Part shown: piece by piece, positions 1-23,028 of the stretch
How positions within the stretch are numbered: the first letter of the stretch is position 1
Layout: each line of letters begins with the position of its first letter
Source: Rhodothermales bacterium
GTDB lineage: Bacteria; Bacteroidota; Rhodothermia; Rhodothermales; Bin80
Direction of reading: 5' to 3'
Length of the DNA stretch: 38,878 nt
Assembly: GCA_022821875.1 (NCBI GenBank)
Contig: JAJECV010000145.1
Location: 1-38,878 of the forward strand
The notes under the pieces: generated by a model
What the model saw: the letters and a program-made list of their open reading frames with translations, nothing else
Database searches by the model: none
Told to the model about the DNA's origin: nothing
Program-made: the position numbers and the translations under genes

Positions 1-233
1 GCAATGAGAATCACATTGTCCCCATTAACGTCTTCAAGAGTGATACCTAATGCGTCAGACAGTAGGCACGGTGAGGTTATTGTGCAAAGATCGCCGCTAC
101 CATTGACTAGGTCCACATAGTAGTCAGCCGTACCCTGTGAAGATGCACTGCGAGGAATGACCAGAACGGTCAGCAGTGCTAGAAGTGTCAGAAGGGAATT
201 ATCCCCCCCCCCCCATTTTGTAATGTGTTTCAT
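1..233 (-). CDS. Exported protein with poly-G tract, N-terminal part (runs off window)
   Basis: Read from an ATG at 233-231, the frame stays open for 77 codons to the window edge. Residues 1-7 are followed by three Gly codons made by the G tract, then a hydrophobic core (LLTLLALLTVLVI) and a polar stretch ending ASS-Q, which together look like a signal peptide with cleavage before the Gln. The mature part starts with TADYYVDLVNGSGDLC and continues with acidic, Gly/Asn-rich sequence and two Cys, reminiscent of the first strands of secreted beta-helix or adhesin-like proteins; this last point is an impression, not a family assignment. No clear Shine-Dalgarno site precedes the ATG. The gene is divergent from the repair operon starting at 738. 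The 12-G run between start and hydrophobic core suggests slipped-strand on/off switching. The function is unknown because the rest of the protein is outside the window. Confidence 0.6.
   Translation of the reverse strand, partial: MKHITKWGGGDNSLLTLLALLTVLVIPRSASSQGTADYYVDLVNGSGDLCTITSPCLLSDALGITLEDVNGDNVILI
203..214 (-). repeat. Homopolymer (G)12 tract inside the start of the exported-protein gene
   Basis: Twelve consecutive C on the plus strand (G on the coding strand), beginning 18 bases downstream of the ATG. With 12 G the frame continues into the signal-peptide core. With 13 G a TAA follows the tract at once; with 11 or 14 G a TGA follows after four further codons. Both alternative registers therefore abolish the product. 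It is by far the longest homopolymer seen in the window, and its position just after a start codon is typical of phase-variable surface genes. Confidence 0.75.
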
Positions 234-737
234 ATGTTTTGGGCCTCGCCCGTTTGGTTTGGCTGGATAATATACGAAAGAGCAGGCAATTAAAATTAGA
301 TGACATAAAGTGGAGCGTCAGGCTAACTGGTAAAATATAGCGGGTGAAAGTTCTATGCTATGAAACTATAACCGAGTACATATCTCCGCAAGTCATGCGC
401 GTCTGTTCGTGAGGGCAGATGTGAAATGTTGACAGCGGCATATGTGGCCGGGGCTATCCAGTACCAAAGAGATATTATCGGGAACTGCTGACTTCCCGGC
501 CATACAACGGGAACATCAACTGGGCGGTCAGGGATAATTCTATGGGCTTAGGAGGTAACTGCATCAAATAAGGTATATTTCAGTTCAGGGTCGAGGGAAG
601 GAGCGGAAACACCAGATGCTATATTTGTTCAACGGAGCATCAGCCAAACGGAGATGTTCAGATTTTTCCAGTGCAATTTTCCGGTTACGGGAACCGATGA
701 ATATGAAACGCAGACTATTCCAGTCTGAACCCTTGTA
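234..737. other. Divergent intergenic region, no gene recognised
   Basis: 504 bases between the exported-protein gene (minus) and the AddB-like gene (plus). No RNA gene or recognisable gene relic was seen. It must hold the two divergent promoters, but no pair of promoter boxes stands out: a TTGACA occurs near 429 without a convincing partner. Confidence 0.5.
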
Positions 738-7072: not shown

Positions 7073-7993
7073 TTAGTGGAATAATTTTTCAAGCGCCTTG
7101 CGCTGCCTTGTATGCTTTTCGCGGTTCATGAATTTAAGTTTTTTCAAGTTAAAGGCTTTCCAGCGAACCGCAGGAAGGTCTTCCGCTTCGGGGAGCCCAA
7201 TCAATTGAAAATCCGGATCGCCGTTATGAAGGGAGAGAAGAAAGGTTGCAATTGAACCTGAAAGCCGTGATGCAATATCTGAATGCAGGCGCTGAGCGGT
7301 TTCAATAAGTGTTTCAATCGGGATGGTTTTCCCGGTCATTCCTTGAAAGCAGAGATTATACAATTCCTTCAGGATATAATTTGATGGGGACAGTATTTTG
7401 TGTATCGGTTGGTTTGAACTGGCAACATAGACCAGAAATACGCGGAACAATTCATCTGTGATCTCCCCGTTCTTGTAGAATGTCATCAGATCGAATAGAT
7501 CCCGCGGATATTTACGTCGGAGGGCAGTATAGATTTTGCCCGCGTACGTATCCGCAAAAGAGGCAACATTCATCCGTATTGCTCCAAATTGTCTGGTTGC
7601 GGCATTGGAGGTTACCATTGAATCCGGAGGCAGTACGGTGCCCCGTTTAACCATAGATGTTTCAATCTTTATCCATGTATCTCCCTGAAACACAATGATC
7701 CGGGGGCAGGCAATCCTTTTTTGCGGCAAGTACTGCGCATAGACCCCGGAATGATTATCCATGATTGCGTCAGCGATGCGGCGGAGGGCATCCTCAGTAT
7801 TCCTGACCGCAATCTTTCGCTCCTCAACCGGTAACCATATGAGTTCAATACTCGCAGGTAACCTTGGCATATCCTGATGGAATATATTGATGGCGGTGCC
7901 TCCCCTGAGGGCAAAGTCTGATTCTTTGGCGACTTTGGGCAGTACCCGCATCAGCAGGGTAGTTCTCTCAAGATAATCACGAGACACACTCAT
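7073..7993 (-). CDS. AbiEii-family nucleotidyltransferase paralogue with broken motif I (probably inactive)
   Basis: 306 aa, homologous along its length to the intact toxin gene at 8242-9165 (shared GGTAINxF, QDMPR, PRDLFD, LFRVxLVYVASS, LPAVRWK). AbiEii toxins are type IV toxins with a nucleotidyltransferase fold, in which motif I pairs a Gly-rich turn with a D-x-D metal site. In the intact paralogue this reads SVDIDLTW; here it reads PASIELIW, so the first Asp is Ser and the second is Glu. The Lys/Arg-Asp region (AGKIYTAL...PRDLFDL) remains. The frame is open from an ATG at 8026, but alignment with the paralogue and the ATG-over-antitoxin-stop pattern place the true start at 7993; the upstream codons lie in a relic of an antitoxin gene. 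The loss of motif I fits a toxin whose antitoxin has decayed. A retained regulatory role cannot be excluded. Confidence 0.8.
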   Translation of the reverse strand: MSVSRDYLERTTLLMRVLPKVAKESDFALRGGTAINIFHQDMPRLPASIELIWLPVEERKIAVRNTEDALRRIADAIMDNHSGVYAQYLPQKRIACPRIIVFQGDTWIKIETSMVKRGTVLPPDSMVTSNAATRQFGAIRMNVASFADTYAGKIYTALRRKYPRDLFDLMTFYKNGEITDELFRVFLVYVASSNQPIHKILSPSNYILKELYNLCFQGMTGKTIPIETLIETAQRLHSDIASRLSGSIATFLLSLHNGDPDFQLIGLPEAEDLPAVRWKAFNLKKLKFMNREKHTRQRKALEKLFH

Positions 7994-8085
7994 CACAGTT
8001 CGGTAGAGGATGTCGATAGACTCCATAGATAATCCGCACCAGCCCCATGATTTACATAATCGTAATCAGAGTTTAAGTTTTGTCC
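7977..8085 (-). pseudogene. Collapsed AbiEi antitoxin relic
   Basis: Read on the minus strand, 8085 to about 8043 gives GQNLNSDYDYVNHG, which aligns residue for residue with GIDSKSIHYYVGQG of the intact antitoxin at 10257-11102. After a small frameshift the next segment reads GLVRIIYGVYRHPLPN against GWLERIIRGVYLRPVP. This runs directly into CDECVS and a TGA at 7979-7977, corresponding to the antitoxin C-terminus (EDECEF). About 210 central codons are therefore deleted, and there is at least one frameshift. The homology weakens beyond about 8110. The relic's stop overlaps the ATG (7993) of the following toxin-like gene as in the intact module, which fixes that gene's start. Confidence 0.7.
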
Positions 8086-8241
8086 TTGCCAGATCCCATA
8101 CATGGAGGTCTCTCAGAGATGATGCATTTGGTTTCTACCAGAGTAGTTCCATCACTGAATTCGTTGGGCAGTGCCAACAATCCGTGGTTTTGACCAGATG
8201 GATAAGCGTTGATTCTATCTGGCGCATTGCATAAACTTGTC

Positions 8242-9165
8242 TTATTGAAACAACCGCCGGATTGCCTCCCGCTGCTGTGCATGTTTTTTTGGTTGCTCCT
8301 TTTTGAGCCTTCCCAGATTCAGCAGTTTCCAGCGAACCGCGGGCAAATTTACAGCATCGGGGAATCCAATCAATCCGAAGTCCGGCTCCACATCATGGAG
8401 TGAAATCAGGAAGGTTTCAACTTCATCTGTAAATCTTGATCGAATATCTTCATGTAGCCGAAGGCCAGTTTCCGTCAGCGCTTTTAGCGAAACATTTCGA
8501 AGATCCATCCCCCTGAATTCCTCGTTGTAATATTCTTCTGCGACCGGTCGAGTTGGTGATATCGATTCATGTATTGTTTTTCTTGAGGATGCGACATATA
8601 CAAGAAGTACTCGGAAGAGCTGATCGGATATCCCTTCGTTCTCATAAAGCACCATGACATCAAACAGGTCTCGCGGATGTTTACGTTCAAGTGCTGCGCA
8701 GATCTTTCCACCATATACATCTTCAAAGGATACCAACTTCATGGTCACCGAGTTGAACTGTTCATTTGCAGCATTCGTCGTCTTCATTAGACGAAATGGC
8801 CTCACGGTGCCTCGTGCTATAGTGGATGTCTCAATTTTTATATCCACCTCGTCGCGTATTACATAGATTTGAGGGAGTCCAGTTCTTTGATTTGGATATC
8901 GTTTTGCAATGATTCCAGCATGCCTGCCCAGAATGGCGCTCGTAATGCGGTTAAATGCATGATCAATGTTTTTTAGCGCCGGTGCACGGTCCGTGATTGG
9001 CAGCCATGTGAGATCAATATCCACGGAATATCTTGGCATATCCTGATAAAACATATTGATGGCAGTGCCCCCCTTGAGTGCAAGGTCTGATTCCTCTGCG
9101 ACGGTTGGTAGAACCTCCATCAGCAACTGAACCTGTTTTCTGTAGTAGTCAAAAGATGCAGTCAT
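8242..9165 (-). CDS. AbiEii-type toxin, nucleotidyltransferase (intact)
   Basis: 307 aa member of the AbiEii/AbiGii toxin family, the toxin of AbiE type IV toxin-antitoxin systems that act in phage abortive infection. Motif I is complete: GGTAINMF at residues 32-39 followed by SVDID with D49 and D51. Downstream, IKIETS, then GGKICAALERKHPRDLFDV provides the conserved Lys and R-D..D residues of the family. The ATG lies inside the 3' end of the antitoxin gene (17-base overlap), so the two are translationally coupled with the antitoxin made first. Related toxins transfer nucleotides, in some cases to tRNA; the target here cannot be read from sequence. A diverged, motif-I-defective paralogue follows at 7073-7993. 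Confidence 0.87.
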   Translation of the reverse strand: MTASFDYYRKQVQLLMEVLPTVAEESDLALKGGTAINMFYQDMPRYSVDIDLTWLPITDRAPALKNIDHAFNRITSAILGRHAGIIAKRYPNQRTGLPQIYVIRDEVDIKIETSTIARGTVRPFRLMKTTNAANEQFNSVTMKLVSFEDVYGGKICAALERKHPRDLFDVMVLYENEGISDQLFRVLLVYVASSRKTIHESISPTRPVAEEYYNEEFRGMDLRNVSLKALTETGLRLHEDIRSRFTDEVETFLISLHDVEPDFGLIGFPDAVNLPAVRWKLLNLGRLKKEQPKKHAQQREAIRRLFQ

Positions 9166-9994
9166 CTACGTAGGATGTATCCACGATAAAGTCTGGAAGG
9201 GAGATGTGATAGGTGGAATGAAATTTTCCGCCTGGTACAAGTATGCGTGGCCCACTACCAAAATCAATCTGTTTGGGGTCAAGAAATTTTAACCAGTCAA
9301 AATTTTTCCGTTCGGCATAAACGAAAAACAGCCGCCGAACCTTAACACTGCGGCAAACCTTTAAGAGTCTCATGAGTAGTTGTGGTCTTAAATCCATCAG
9401 ATTCTCAAAGATCAGGTCCACATATTCAAAACTTAGGTTGTCTGGTAATTGGGCAATCATCTCAAGGATAGCACGTTCTGGACAGGATGCCTTTATTGGC
9501 CAACTCCATATACCTGATGTCCAAATTTCTTTGTAGGTGACAGGATGACTGTTAACAATCCCAACCGGATTTTTGCCAAATAGAGTAGACTTATGCGATA
9601 CGATCTTGTCTGTTGTAGGAAGACGTTTTAGCCAAGAGGGTACGTCTCCGTACAAATGAATCCTCTGTCCCTCTCCTATCCACCCATAATGGGCATGGCC
9701 GGCATGGTTTAGAGCATTTCTGTGACCTAAGTGTACATTATACCTCATCAGTTGTTGGAGCGATACAAGGACGGTCGGCCAGGACAGCCTTGGATCATCA
9801 TGTGCATTTTGTGGCAGTGTGCGACGATACACGCCGTGTATGACCCGCTCAAGCCATCCCTGATGGACATAGCGGTGTATAGAACTTGAGTCCGCCCCCC
9901 TTGCTTTCAACCATGCCGTATCCACGATGAACCCTGGGGGGATGTCATCAACAAGATTTTTTAATCTTGGTGTTATTTGTCGCTTATTGTTCAT
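9149..9994 (-). CDS. AbiEi-type antitoxin of the intact module
   Basis: 281 aa. The N-terminal part (about residues 8-75) looks like the winged-helix AbiEi antitoxin domain: PPGFIVDTAWLKARG, then IHRYVHQGWLERVIHGVYRR. The rest is the AbiEi C-terminal domain, ending GPRILVPGGKFHSTYHISLP. Such antitoxins neutralise the toxin without a stable complex and repress their own promoter. The gene overlaps its toxin by 17 bases. It is a clear paralogue of the antitoxin at 10257-11102, of identical length and with the same C-terminal motif. About 40 bases upstream of its ATG is a 62-base segment shared with the leader of that paralogue, a good candidate for promoter plus autoregulatory operator. Confidence 0.85.
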   Translation of the reverse strand: MNNKRQITPRLKNLVDDIPPGFIVDTAWLKARGADSSSIHRYVHQGWLERVIHGVYRRTLPQNAHDDPRLSWPTVLVSLQQLMRYNVHLGHRNALNHAGHAHYGWIGEGQRIHLYGDVPSWLKRLPTTDKIVSHKSTLFGKNPVGIVNSHPVTYKEIWTSGIWSWPIKASCPERAILEMIAQLPDNLSFEYVDLIFENLMDLRPQLLMRLLKVCRSVKVRRLFFVYAERKNFDWLKFLDPKQIDFGSGPRILVPGGKFHSTYHISLPDFIVDTSYVDDCIF

Positions 9995-10034
9995 GGAATC
10001 TATTAGATTTTAAAATTTTTTATGAAAATCCATT

Positions 10035-10096
10035 AAAAAATTCCCTGAAAAGTGTCTTCTGTCCATTAAAATCATTTAAAATCAAAATTGTTCCAG
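10035..10096 (-). promoter_or_regulatory. Duplicated AbiE leader, copy next to the intact module
   Basis: AT-rich segment 40 bases upstream of the antitoxin ATG (9994). It aligns with 11143-11204 upstream of the other antitoxin over 62 bases with a one-base gap, sharing blocks such as TCCATTAA and AAAATCAAAAT on the plus strand, at the same distance from the start codon. On the coding strand TTTTAATGGA occurs twice about 31 bases apart around this segment. Promoter and operator function is inferred from conservation and position. Confidence 0.5.
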
Positions 10097-10168
10097 ATTC
10101 AAGTCAAGATGGTGATCGAGCTAAGACAAACGGCCAGTGGCCTGGCTCTACAGGTCGGATAGAGCATA

Positions 10169-10273
10169 TCAATGATCGTATGACTCTATGTGTATGCATG
10201 AACTCCCTCTGATGGTTGCGAGCGTCTCCAGCATCCGCTGAACTGGACTGAAATCTTTAGAATTCACATTCAT
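10169..10273 (-). pseudogene. Stub of an AbiEii toxin gene after the first antitoxin
   Basis: An ATG at 10273-10271 overlaps the antitoxin stop in exactly the register used by the intact module (GATGAMTGY... then stop). The 34-codon frame begins MNVNSKDFSPVQRMLETLA; its DFSPVQRMLETLATI segment aligns with DYYRKQVQLLMEVLPTV of the intact toxin. Homology stops before the GGT motif, and the leader of the next antitoxin gene begins shortly after. This is the 5' remnant of a toxin gene lost by deletion. Confidence 0.6.
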
Positions 10274-11102
10274 CTTCGTAGGAAGTATCTACGAAGAGCT
10301 CTGGAAGGGAGATATGATAAGTGGGGTGAAATTTTCCACCCGGAACCAATGCACGCGGTCCGCTGCCCAGATCAAATTGATCAACGTCCAGATCTTCGCG
10401 CCAGGGGTGTTGATATAGATCTGCAAAGACAAAGAACAGCCTGCGCACCTTCACACTGCGGCATGCTTTCAGGAGTGCGATGAGAAGGTGTGGACGCAGT
10501 CCATCCAGTCTTCCGAAAACATATTCGATAAACTCAAAATCGGGGTTACCTCCCAGTTCATACATCAATTCAAAGAGGGCACGTTCCCTGCATGACACTT
10601 TCATTGGCCACCCCCAAACCCGAACCGTCCAGGTGATTTCCCGTTGTGGGGAAGTACGGTCAACAATCCCCACCGGGTCATCCCCAAATAGTGTAGACTT
10701 ATGCAAGATGATTTTATCAATTGTAGGGAGGCGCTTCAGCCAGGATGGTGCATTGCCGTAGAAATGGATGCGCTGTGATATTCCCATCCATTCATACGGG
10801 ATGCGTCCGGCGTATTTGAGGGCACTGATTCCACCAAGGTGTACGCTATGTCCCATGAGTTGTTGAAGCGACACGAGTACTGCCTCCCAGGATAGCTTGC
10901 GGCGGTTCGGAAGATCTTTTGGCACTGGGCGAAGATAAACCCCGCGAATAATGCGCTCAAGCCATCCTTGACCGACATAGTAATGGATAGACTTTGAGTC
11001 AATCCCTCTTGCACTCAGCCACGCCGTATCTATGATGAATCCCGGCGGGAGGTCATTCAGGAGATATTTCAGTCTTGGTGTTCGGGTTTGTTTTTTATCC
11101 AT
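10257..11102 (-). CDS. AbiEi-type antitoxin paralogue, orphaned from its toxin
   Basis: 281 aa, the same length as the antitoxin at 9149-9994 and similar throughout: PPGFIIDTAWLSARG, YYVGQGWLERIIRGVYLR, VSLQQLMGHSVHLGG, GGKFHPTYHISLP. It has the N-terminal winged-helix domain and C-terminal AbiEi domain. It is the first gene of the island and has its own leader (11143-11204). Its 3' end is followed not by a complete toxin gene but by a short stub (10169-10273). The protein looks intact, so it may still repress the AbiE promoters or counter the toxin-like genes downstream. Whether it cross-protects against the intact toxin cannot be judged from sequence. Confidence 0.83.
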   Translation of the reverse strand: MDKKQTRTPRLKYLLNDLPPGFIIDTAWLSARGIDSKSIHYYVGQGWLERIIRGVYLRPVPKDLPNRRKLSWEAVLVSLQQLMGHSVHLGGISALKYAGRIPYEWMGISQRIHFYGNAPSWLKRLPTIDKIILHKSTLFGDDPVGIVDRTSPQREITWTVRVWGWPMKVSCRERALFELMYELGGNPDFEFIEYVFGRLDGLRPHLLIALLKACRSVKVRRLFFVFADLYQHPWREDLDVDQFDLGSGPRALVPGGKFHPTYHISLPELFVDTSYEDECEF

Positions 11103-18609: not shown

Positions 18610-20403
18610 ATGAGCGAGATCGTCTTTAAGGGCAAGGAGTTTGTCTACAATCACCATCTAGCAGTACCATTCAGACCACTTGAAATTCATCCTGACAAAG
18701 GAGTTGGAGAACCTAGTCTGACCGGGAATCTCATCATCCATGGCGATAATCTTCATGCATTAAAGGCACTTCTGCCCCAGTACGCCGGAAAGGTAGACTG
18801 TATCTACATTGATCCGCCCTATAATACCGGGCGTGAGAATTGGTGCTACAATGATAATGTAAATGCGCCCATGGTTCGTGAATGGCTGGATGCGAATCCT
18901 GTCGGCGTTGAAGATGGATTGCGACATGAGAAATGGTGTTGTATTATGTGGCCGCGTCTTAGGCTGTTGAACGAATTGCTTTCTGAAACCGGCGCGATTT
19001 TTGTTTCAATTGACGATCACGAACAGCATCGGCTGCGTGCGATGATGGATGAGATCTTTGGGGGTGATCAGTTCGTAAGCAATATCATCTGGCAAAAGAA
19101 ATACTCGCCGTCCAATGACGCAAAGGGATTTTCGGATGATCACGATTTTGTCGTCTGCTACGCCAGGCCCGGGTGGTCACGCCGCCTGCTGCCGCGGGGT
19201 GAAAAACAGAACAAGGCTTATGGTCACGATGACCAAGATGGGCGTGGCCCTTGGCAATCCGGAGATTTAAGCGTTAAGACCTATTCGGCGGCCTATGACT
19301 ATGAGATTGAGAATCCAGAGACCGGGGAAAGGCATCGTCCACCGGCCGGTAGATGTTGGGTAACGAGTAAAGAAACTGTGAAGGAGTGGATACGGCAAAA
19401 TCGCATTTACTTTCCTTCAGGCGGAAATAGTGTGCCGCGATTAAAACGTTATCTAAGCGATGTTCAGCAAGGCGTAGTTCCACGTACAGTCTGGCCCTAC
19501 ACAGAAGTTGGGCACACTGACGGAGCAAGGAAACTGCTCAAAGAAATTTTTCATGATCAGGAAGTCCTGTTTGATAATCCCAAGGCACTCGGACTCCTGG
19601 AGCGGATCATTAGCATCGGGGCGGACAAGAATGCACTTATCCTTGATTCTTTCGCAGGATCTGGAACGACGGGCCATGCAGTCCTGTCCCTAAATAAAAA
19701 GGATGGAGGAGACCGCAGGTTTATTCTCGTGGAATGCGAAGACTATGCGAACCGAACGACGGCTGAACGTATTCGAAGGGTGATTCATGGATATGACTAC
19801 ACCGGTGTACAGAAGACGGAGTTGATGCGGGAAAACATTACATGGACAAAGTTGAAGAATTCAAGTAAGCTGATTGACCGGGTTGCATCAATTGAAGATA
19901 TGCACCATCATGAATATGATCGTATCGGTAAGAAGGTGATTGGAAGGGAACTCATCGTGGTCGGTGAGAAAGAGATTGAGGGGCATAGTGAAGGATTGGG
20001 AGGCATGTTTACTTTTTGCAGGCTCGGTGATTCTTTGAGTGTAGAGAAACTGTTAACCGGAGAAATACTGCCCACCTTTGTGGGAATTGGTTCAGTATTG
20101 TTCCATATGGCTACGAACCAAGTTCTAGATGTAGGGGGAGTGCAGGAAAAAGAATTTTATCTTGGAACCACCGGTGATCAACATGTCTGGTTACTATACA
20201 GACCTGATCTGGATTGGCTGAAGTCCCCGGAAGCCGCACTCACACTTTCCCGCGCCAGAGGATTTGCATCTCACGACCAAGATAAACGACATCTAGTTTT
20301 TGCTCCTGCTAAATATGTGAGTCAGAAAATGTTGACAGAGCAAAAGATTCCGGTTGAATTCGTGCCGTTGCCATTTTCACTTTATGAAGTTCCGCAGAAT
20401 TGA
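18610..20403 (+). CDS. mod: Type III restriction-modification methyltransferase subunit (Mod)
   Basis: 597 aa N6-adenine DNA methyltransferase of the beta group. The catalytic motif DPPYNTG (D68-P-P-Y71) precedes the AdoMet-binding motif DSFAGSGTTG (from D346), the order that defines the group. The long variable segment between them (about residues 130-320) should contain the target-recognition domain. The Mod subunit recognises a short asymmetric site, methylates one strand, and forms the complex with Res for cleavage. Res starts 6 bases downstream, so the two form one operon. A decayed TnpB relic lies just upstream, consistent with acquisition by transfer. No simple repeat that would make the gene phase variable was seen in the frame. 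Confidence 0.92.
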   Translation: MSEIVFKGKEFVYNHHLAVPFRPLEIHPDKGVGEPSLTGNLIIHGDNLHALKALLPQYAGKVDCIYIDPPYNTGRENWCYNDNVNAPMVREWLDANPVGVEDGLRHEKWCCIMWPRLRLLNELLSETGAIFVSIDDHEQHRLRAMMDEIFGGDQFVSNIIWQKKYSPSNDAKGFSDDHDFVVCYARPGWSRRLLPRGEKQNKAYGHDDQDGRGPWQSGDLSVKTYSAAYDYEIENPETGERHRPPAGRCWVTSKETVKEWIRQNRIYFPSGGNSVPRLKRYLSDVQQGVVPRTVWPYTEVGHTDGARKLLKEIFHDQEVLFDNPKALGLLERIISIGADKNALILDSFAGSGTTGHAVLSLNKKDGGDRRFILVECEDYANRTTAERIRRVIHGYDYTGVQKTELMRENITWTKLKNSSKLIDRVASIEDMHHHEYDRIGKKVIGRELIVVGEKEIEGHSEGLGGMFTFCRLGDSLSVEKLLTGEILPTFVGIGSVLFHMATNQVLDVGGVQEKEFYLGTTGDQHVWLLYRPDLDWLKSPEAALTLSRARGFASHDQDKRHLVFAPAKYVSQKMLTEQKIPVEFVPLPFSLYEVPQN

Positions 20404-20409
20404 ATAAAA

Positions 20410-23028
20410 ATGAGATTTCGCCATTTGGAATATCAGGACCGGGTGCTTAATGTACTTGACACGCATCTCCGTTACCTGAAGGAGGAGAAGCAGGAGACGG
20501 ACAAGACTGCGAAAGTTGCGGCCGAAAATCCAGATGTGAGAATTTCTGTTCCGGATTTTACCCGGCAGGCTTGGCAGAGGATGGAAAAGGCGGGCAGCCT
20601 GCCCACTTCCCGCACACACATCCCCTATTCAGAGCGGAAAGATGGATGTGGGAATGCAGTTCCAAATGTGGTACTCAAGGTGCCAACAGGAGGTGGCAAG
20701 ACGTTTCTGGCTGTATCTGGTGTGTCCAAAATTATGGGCCAATATCTTTCATCGAATTCTGGATTTGTATTGTGGATCGTCCCCAATGAGGCGATTTATA
20801 CGCAGACGCTGAAGGCATTTAAGAATCGTCAGCATCCATATCGGCAAATGCTTGATCGCGCCGCCGCTGGACGCGTCAAAATCATGGAGAAGATGTCTCC
20901 TCTCAATGCACGGGATTTAGAAGGTAATCTTTGTGTTATGCTCCTGATGCTGCCATCCGCAAATCGAAGGAACAGGGAGTTATTGAAGATTTTTCGGGAT
21001 CGGGGAGATGTGCATGGATTTTTCCCGCCAGAAGGCGAAGAGCAGGCGCATAGACAACTTAAAGTTGAGATCCCAAATCTCGAAACCTACGGCGGGGATA
21101 TTTTTCTGCGAGTGAAAGACTCACTTGGGAATGCACTGCGGATCATTCGTCCCGTGGTGGTTGTGGACGAAGGGCATAGAGCAATTTCTGAACTTGCCTT
21201 TGAAACCTTATATGGGTTTAATCCGTGTTTTGTGCTTGAACTCACGGCAACCCCGAAGGACGTAAAGCCGCGTGGTGGGCGAAATCCAAGATCTGGGCGA
21301 TATGCCAATCTTTTGGTTGAGGTTACCGGGCGTGATCTGGATCGTGAAGATATGATCAAGATGCCGCTTACTCTCAATCCATGTCAAGGTAATGACTGGC
21401 GTAGCACGTTGAATGTGGCATTAACCAAACTCAAAGAACTTCAGGTTCATGCTGACCAATTTCAGGCAGATACGAACCGCTATATCCGACCAATTTTGCT
21501 TGTTCAGGTGGAACGCACAGGGAAAGATCAGCGGGAGACCAACTATGTTCACAGTAATGAAGTGAAAGAGTGGCTTCTGACAACCGGCTTTGATGAGGCC
21601 GAGATCGCGATCAAGACATCTGAGCAGAATGACCTGAGTAAGCCGGAGAATCAGGATCTGTTATCTCCGGCAAATCAGACTCGAATCATTATCACAAAGC
21701 AGGCCCTGCAAGAGGGATGGGACTGCCCCTTTGCCTATATCCTGTGTACCCTTGCTGCGAGTTCTAACCAGAATGCGTTAACACAACTGGTTGGCCGTAT
21801 CCTTCGCCAGCCGGATGCAGTGAAGACGGGAAACCAAGCACTGGATGAATGCTATGTGGTTACGCATTATGCGAAGACCGCCGAAGTCATCAGTGCGATC
21901 AAGAAGGGGTTGGAGAAAGATGGACTGGGGGATCTTTCCATTCAGGTAAGTCAGGATCATAATGACAGTTCAGAGACTGGACTGAGACGGATTGGTCGCC
22001 GTCCCAAGTTTCAATCCATGGAAATATTTTTGCCGAAGGTTATGGCAGTGGACAGAGGTGAGGTACGCGAACTTGACTATGAGGCAGATGTACTGGCGCA
22101 AATTAACTGGCATGGATATAGCCCTGATTCTATTGCAAGGGCCATTCCAAAGAATGCACAACCTGTTGATGCGCAACTGCAACGGATAAGTTTAACGGAT
22201 GATGAAGAACTAATTCGATCCGAGGGGATCACTTCAAGTTCTGGATATACGGCCCTTGATCCAGTTTATGCAGTTCAGAGAATTTTGGATATTGTCTGGA
22301 ATCCCTTCGTGGGACGTGAGATTATAGGCCGATTACTTGACGGTCTTCGCAGCCGGAATTTCGATAACGAAATGCTTGGGGGGATCTCCGCACTGATTAT
22401 TGAAGAATTGCGTCGGGAGTTAGAAAAGGAACGTGATCTGCAGGCAGAATCAATCTTTAAGAGGCGGGTTAGGGATGGGGAGATTCAGTTTCGTTTGCGC
22501 CTTGACGGGCATAACTGGAAAATGCCCCGAAAAATTCCCGCAAGCCTGTCAGGTGGTAAGAAGTTACTTGCCAACAAACATGGTGGGCTTCTGGAAAGGA
22601 GTCTGTTTGAACCGGTGTATGAGTCAGAATTCAACCAGGAGGAGAAAGATGTCGCCGTATATCTTGATGGAGAAACAGCATTAACATGGTGGCATCGCAA
22701 TGTTGCCCGCTCGGATTACGGACTTCAAGGGTGGAAGAAAGGCAAGGTGTATCCTGACTTTATTTTTGCTGTTCAGAGTGGAGGCCATGATTCACGCATT
22801 ACTGCTATCGAGACCAAAGGAGATCACCTTGACAACCTTGATACAGACTACAAACGGGAATTGCTGAATTTCCTGTCCAGCAGTTATGCCTGGGAAAATA
22901 GTACGCCCGCAGGCGAACTGGAGCTGGTTACAGACAGCGGGCAGACAATGCATTGCGAACTGGTCATGATGAGTGAATGGAAGACCCGGTTGCCATCTAT
23001 GCTGGGCAGTACTGCGAAGGAACCCTGA
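20410..23028 (+). CDS. res: Type III restriction endonuclease subunit (Res)
   Basis: 872 aa superfamily 2 translocase-endonuclease. Walker A is PTGGGKT (residues 92-98), motif II is DEGH (D253-H256), motif III is ELTATPKD, and late helicase motifs are QEGWDCPFAYILCTLA and QLVGRILRQP. At the C-terminus P782-D783 and E801-T-K803 (YPDF...AIETKGDHL) form the PD-(D/E)XK nuclease site. Together with Mod it cuts foreign DNA carrying two inversely oriented unmethylated sites after ATP-dependent communication along DNA. The length is in the usual range, all motifs are present and no frameshift was found, so the system looks functional. Confidence 0.92.
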   Translation: MRFRHLEYQDRVLNVLDTHLRYLKEEKQETDKTAKVAAENPDVRISVPDFTRQAWQRMEKAGSLPTSRTHIPYSERKDGCGNAVPNVVLKVPTGGGKTFLAVSGVSKIMGQYLSSNSGFVLWIVPNEAIYTQTLKAFKNRQHPYRQMLDRAAAGRVKIMEKMSPLNARDLEGNLCVMLLMLPSANRRNRELLKIFRDRGDVHGFFPPEGEEQAHRQLKVEIPNLETYGGDIFLRVKDSLGNALRIIRPVVVVDEGHRAISELAFETLYGFNPCFVLELTATPKDVKPRGGRNPRSGRYANLLVEVTGRDLDREDMIKMPLTLNPCQGNDWRSTLNVALTKLKELQVHADQFQADTNRYIRPILLVQVERTGKDQRETNYVHSNEVKEWLLTTGFDEAEIAIKTSEQNDLSKPENQDLLSPANQTRIIITKQALQEGWDCPFAYILCTLAASSNQNALTQLVGRILRQPDAVKTGNQALDECYVVTHYAKTAEVISAIKKGLEKDGLGDLSIQVSQDHNDSSETGLRRIGRRPKFQSMEIFLPKVMAVDRGEVRELDYEADVLAQINWHGYSPDSIARAIPKNAQPVDAQLQRISLTDDEELIRSEGITSSSGYTALDPVYAVQRILDIVWNPFVGREIIGRLLDGLRSRNFDNEMLGGISALIIEELRRELEKERDLQAESIFKRRVRDGEIQFRLRLDGHNWKMPRKIPASLSGGKKLLANKHGGLLERSLFEPVYESEFNQEEKDVAVYLDGETALTWWHRNVARSDYGLQGWKKGKVYPDFIFAVQSGGHDSRITAIETKGDHLDNLDTDYKRELLNFLSSSYAWENSTPAGELELVTDSGQTMHCELVMMSEWKTRLPSMLGSTAKEP

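Follow-up and report, generated by a model that had tools for sequence, protein, structure and literature searches.

A poly-G tract in the leader of a T9SS surface-protein family as a proposed slipped-strand switch in an uncultured Rhodothermales lineage

The window and its poly-G tract

The window, which here denotes the whole analysed stretch of 38,878 nucleotides, is contig C88 of a 3.68 Mb Rhodothermales MAG of 147 contigs. Near its beginning, an open reading frame on the minus strand starts from an ATG at 233-231 (ATG1) and exits both the window and the contig end at position 3 (Table 1). The N-terminus reads M-K-H-I-T-K-W-G-G-G-D-N, followed by a hydrophobic core, and inspection by eye indicates a candidate Sec signal peptide with a typical n-region, the hydrophobic core, and an SASSQ end. 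A continuation of this gene was sought in the rest of the bin, where only paralogs were found. The short G/C-rich element 5′ of ATG1 recurs 5′ of family starts across the genus (GGGCGGAGGCCC...ATG). Elsewhere in the window, two consecutive and similar minus-strand ORF pairs (7073-11102) resemble AbiEii/AbiEi toxin-antitoxin pairs by eye, and neighbouring ORFs at 18610-23028, which carry no poly-G, resemble a DNA methyltransferase (DPPYNTG) and a type III restriction helicase, likewise by eye.

The sequence-only reading had reported a run of 12 G between the start codon and the signal-peptide core, and the run is present there. Its frame arithmetic, in which 12 G keeps the frame open and 11 or 14 G brings a TGA four codons on, was recomputed and proved correct. 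In an in-silico frame table of the window copy, ATG1 is open at n = 12; neither start is open at n = 13, where the ATG1 frame hits an immediate TAA; and only a second, candidate start (ATG2) is open at n = 11 or 14, where ATG1 reads ATA ATT CCC TTC TGA. A change in tract length thus switches the frame of an otherwise intact gene, as in slipped-strand loci.

The frequency of long runs expected by chance was obtained from a first-order Markov estimate with the window composition, and the genome tract counts were obtained from pattern searches. Apart from this tract, G or C runs in the window reach at most 7 bases, and 0.010 runs of at least 12 are expected per window. Genome-wide, 7 runs of at least 12 were observed versus 0.98 expected, and 5 of at least 14 versus 0.075 expected, so that the tract, like those of contingency loci, is longer than chance predicts. 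The idea that every 10-G run is remarkable was rejected, because runs of at least 10 show no excess (13 observed, 12.8 expected); the excess lies in length and placement.

Table 1. Positions of the features of the window copy, tract states of the family leaders, and further long tracts (plain number ranges are window positions)
Feature	Location	Strand	Tract and frame	Basis
(G)12 tract, proposed slipped-strand switch	203-214	minus (C on plus)		direct count; lengths in 13 related leaders
5′ end of T9SS-type surface protein gene	3..233	minus	77 open codons	ORF scan, paralogs
Signal peptide MKHITKWGGGDNSLLTLLALLTVLVIPRSASSQ, tract between charged n-region and hydrophobic core	135..233	minus		sequence inspection
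Short G/C-rich element GGGCGAGGCCC, directly 5′ of ATG1	241..251	minus		compared start contexts
ATG1, ancestral start	231..233	minus	in frame at 12 G	homologs without poly-G
Candidate start ATG2, in which A and T are completed by the first tract G	214..216	minus	body frame at 11/14 G, not 12	frame table
Leader, own genome	C136		G10; ATG1 open, at least 756 codons	
Leader, own genome (window copy)	C88		G12 + extra A; ATG1 open	
Leaders, own genome	C73, C70, C18, C2		G9; ATG1 closed	
Leader, own genome	C139		A5 + G10; both starts closed	
Leaders, sister species	G004		G9 (four), ATG1 closed; G8 (one), both starts closed; A5 + G9 (one), open	
Type III mod gene, with the endonuclease gene res downstream	C98, L040:5324-5336		G13, in frame	
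Type ISP R-M gene	C69, L038:727-737		G11, in frame	
Type ISP R-M gene	C147, L035:5378-5391		G14, out of frame	
Another N6/N4 DNA methyltransferase gene	C63, L042:5158-5167		G/C tract	
Exported Big_12 and fn3 proteins, tract before signal core	C113, L031:6520-6534; C30, L036:6420-6435			
Lipoprotein-like gene, tract before signal core	C90, L039:5195-5208			
Exported or lipoprotein-like ORF	C64, L037:1159-1174			
IS110-type elements directly after G run	sister JAJECE010000002.1 L139:6664-6692; own C133 L032:302-312; G014 L201, L205, L212, L213, L215		G8-15	

The leader family and its two start codons

Thirteen 5′ ends of the family have the common leader ATGAAACACATTACAAAAT-G(n)-(A)TAATTCC. The leader is found on eight contigs of its own genome, of which C18, C2, and C20 have exactly 141 nt in common, which matches the overlap that assembly at k = 141 would leave; C20 is therefore regarded as a collapsed continuation shared by C18 and C2, which brings the count of 5′ ends to seven. 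The other six leaders belong to G004, a sister-species Rhodothermales MAG (JAJECE records). Tract lengths in relatives, which had been proposed as a check, are non-uniform among the paralogs and the sister species: lengths of 8, 9, 10, and 12, together with an A4/A5 change, occur among the 13 leaders, including single-step variation between copies and species, and ATG1 is in frame in three of them and out of frame in ten. In G004, C35 (G8) and C78 (G9) match throughout 251 nt of flanking sequence (131 nt upstream, 120 nt downstream) and differ by one G; the two are separate loci because their more distant upstream sequences differ. Differences of the G8/G9 kind between MAG contigs could reflect strain mixture.

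The conserved and unbroken downstream frame that the sequence-only reading called for is borne out, since no stops occur in any downstream frame that can be followed. The C20 copy, an ATG1-closed paralog, has 1655 open codons after the tract, and C73 and C70, whose first 200 nt beyond the tract are 96% and 94% identical to the window copy, are open for 119 codons up to their own contig ends. Most copies stop at contig breaks, as repeats do, and a protein search placed family 3′ ends at further contig ends. Pairwise dN/dS is 0.14-0.40 in most copy pairs, including those with ATG1-closed copies, and 0.42-0.47 in two 66-codon comparisons involving the window copy; one very short pair of 119 codons gives 1.32, but its sequences are too nearly identical for this value to be informative. 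Judged by these ratios, most copies are under purifying selection. An assembly artefact or decay of the gene copies might be suspected in a MAG of 147 contigs with copies ending at contig breaks and a truncated window gene, but this explanation is scarcely credible, as the leader is found at numerous loci and recurs in a species whose genome was assembled independently, the frames are intact over the lengths given above, and dN/dS is well below 1 except in the one short pair.

Family homologs were found in all nine same-genus genomes examined, the most distant of which match in the C-terminal part only. A poly-G tract was sought in the more distant homologs of the genus and is absent; these homologs start with MKHFTKFFGLGCVAL or MKYITNFLGVGCVAL, aligned with ATG1. 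Because the tract-less homologs begin at the aligned position, ATG1 is, on this comparison, the ancestral start. The possibility that translation begins after the tract, named in the sequence-only reading as an objection to switching, is disfavoured by this alignment, although ATG2 at the tract edge could serve as a start. ATG2, which the sequence-only reading had overlooked, lies 17 bases downstream of ATG1 in a different frame, and with this second ATG the tract has three frame states rather than two. The slipped-strand design proposed from the sequence thus holds insofar as lengths vary and frames are intact, whereas a plain on/off switch is too simple.

A two-start, three-state switch would refine the slipped-strand explanation: ATG2 would function, lengths of n = 0 mod 3 (G9 type) would yield MGGGNSLLTLLALLTVLV without a positive n-region, at another level or with poorer export, and the third phase alone would be fully off. 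ATG2 is in the body frame and ATG1 is not in 8 of the 13 leaders, and this state is modal in both species, so that labelling these copies "off" is premature; the G9 copies without the extra A keep ATG2 in frame and hence may not be off. ATG2 is located in an A-rich stretch and would need no Shine-Dalgarno motif: such motifs were seen before just 2 of the 19 genome starts inspected, and because of this scarcity their absence before ATG2 means little, and a Shine-Dalgarno argument in favour of ATG1 was dropped. Furthermore, lic2A is cited as a two-start precedent (Dixon 2007, via PMC6479036). On the other hand, the start conserved in tract-less homologs is ATG1, the modal G9 is explicable by shared ancestry alone, and the predicted ATG2 product lacks lysine or arginine before the hydrophobic core. 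Absence of positive charge before the core usually weakens Sec signal peptides. The two-start refinement is therefore put forward tentatively, at somewhat less than even odds.

The proposed switch and its genomic context

The complete 3′ ends of sister paralogs encode a T9SS type A sorting domain (PF18962, 38.8 bits, cut-off 27; TIGR04183, 37.7, cut-off 23); the domain was read in paralogs, the C-terminus of the window gene lying outside its contig. The T9SS translocon gene SprA is present in the genome (SprA_N, 273.9 bits at C126). A Pfam scan of the family protein P0001 detected DUF4397 above cut-off near the C-terminus, and the Pfam scan of the family protein gave no match to an outer-membrane-porin family. 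The predicted model of C20 residues 20-720, based on a 12-sequence alignment, is beta-rich with a mean pLDDT of 70.7; a fold search with this model returned nothing beyond weak resemblances to beta-solenoids (best E 0.034), and no mature fold is claimed because these matches are weak.

The tract is interpreted, with a probability of about 0.85, as a slipped-strand contingency switch on translation of this T9SS surface-protein family, Opa-like in design. DNA polymerase slippage, presumably reversible, would add or drop single Gs between the start codon and the signal-peptide hydrophobic core; at 12 G, ATG1 would read through into the full secreted protein, at frame-shifting lengths the ATG1 product would end within about 15 codons, and tract length would in this way affect expression and the cell surface. 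Because copies in the same genome differ in length, each protein is probably switched on and off at random, and with at least seven loci carrying the same leader and each slipping on its own, the subset of large T9SS-secreted proteins on display would vary within a population. A missing mismatch-repair gene was considered as a cause of slippage and rejected, since MutS is present in the genome.

Alternatively, tract length might be irrelevant if the frames were mixed at every length, either by ribosomes shifting frame on the G run or by RNA polymerase slipping there. Transcriptional slippage can arise at long G runs, and constant low expression would also explain why out-of-frame copies are under purifying selection. 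This account is nevertheless very improbable in view of the one-base length differences between otherwise identical copies and the reappearance of the design in exported and restriction-modification genes that are unrelated, a pattern shared with established contingency loci.

Further G/C tracts of 10-16 occur in methyltransferase genes and 5′ of exported Ig/FN3 proteins of the same genome (Table 1). For the methyltransferase tracts, which measure 10-14, phase-variable methylation is possible, judging from tract position and frame. In the exported or lipoprotein-like ORFs (C113, C30, C90, and C64), runs of C14-C16 lie between possible starts and the signal-peptide core, with the strands swapped relative to the family design, and the tract lengths of the C30 and C90 genes differ in their sister-species orthologs. 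Exported-protein genes and R-M genes of type III (mod) and type ISP are the usual company of phase-variable loci, and the long tracts in them support the slipped-strand proposal. As separate observations, the G run in most long tracts of this genome and in L185-L199 is usually preceded by A4-6 and then T/TC on the G strand, with either strand coding, and the sister species carries an in-frame G11 (L197:2316-2326) inside a class II ribonucleotide reductase gene, expected to be a housekeeping gene.

Throughout the family, G runs of at least 10 are numerous, and some of them are part of IS110 elements. The opposite end of the IS110-type elements, for which identity by Pfam applies to the G014 element only, also carries 5-7 Gs, and such elements may target poly-G. 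The tract could accordingly be regarded mainly as a target or junction for these elements or for paralog recombination, with frame changes as a by-product: IS110 elements of a related genome are bordered by G runs on either side, and one element end of the sister species lies exactly in a family leader tract (ATGAAATACATTACAAAAAT-G8-ACTCTCTACC...), the leader passing from G8 directly into the element. This explanation is hardly tenable, because all leaders seen but one enter an intact family gene without an element, and single-base length differences require slippage rather than insertion. A broader scheme joins the slipped-strand switch to these elements, namely a genus-wide phasome of uncultured Rhodothermota in which a three-state poly-G switch of the T9SS family, with a second start built from the tract, would be linked to phase-variable methyltransferases of type III and type ISP, and in which IS110 elements could insert into the switch tracts; this scheme is speculative and rather unlikely as a whole.

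Comparison with known contingency systems

Most descriptions of homopolymer phase variation come from pathogens with small genomes. The present proposal concerns a multi-locus homopolymer system in an uncultured Rhodothermales lineage, acting on type IX secretion cargo; if it is true, these bacteria vary their surface at random, a behaviour that pressure from phages or hosts would be expected to favour. A literature search of non-subscription papers found no pairing of Rhodothermales with phase variation, and for phase variation acting on type IX secretion cargo it gave only a general review.

In the opa genes of Neisseria, CTCTT repeats are located in the region coding for the leader peptide (PMC3960869). 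In design, both systems comprise a multicopy, scattered surface-protein family in which the frame depends on the length of a repeat within the part of the gene that encodes the signal peptide, whereas the repeat unit here is one G instead of five bases and the products are large T9SS cargo rather than outer-membrane barrels. Poly-G/poly-C contingency genes of Neisseria and Campylobacter, such as hmbR (PMC3786947) and those of phasomes (PMC6321876), share with the present system G/C homopolymers in coding sequence at many loci, including surface proteins and DNA methyltransferases; here, by contrast, the phylum is another one, secretion is through the T9SS, and the system is described from assembled sequence. 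Haemophilus lic2A, as represented in the citing paper, has several initiation codons that are functional and may differ in expression (Dixon 2007, via PMC6479036); to that extent it likewise offers alternative possible starts 5′ of the repeat and more than two states, whereas the putative second start here is partly made of the tract itself. Phase-variable type III mod genes (phasevarions), e.g., modH of H. pylori (PMC5700931), resemble the C98 mod gene with its own tract and adjoining res, although that gene is separate from the surface-protein family. The slipped-strand mechanism is a known one, while the lineage and the cargo appear to be new relative to the literature searched.
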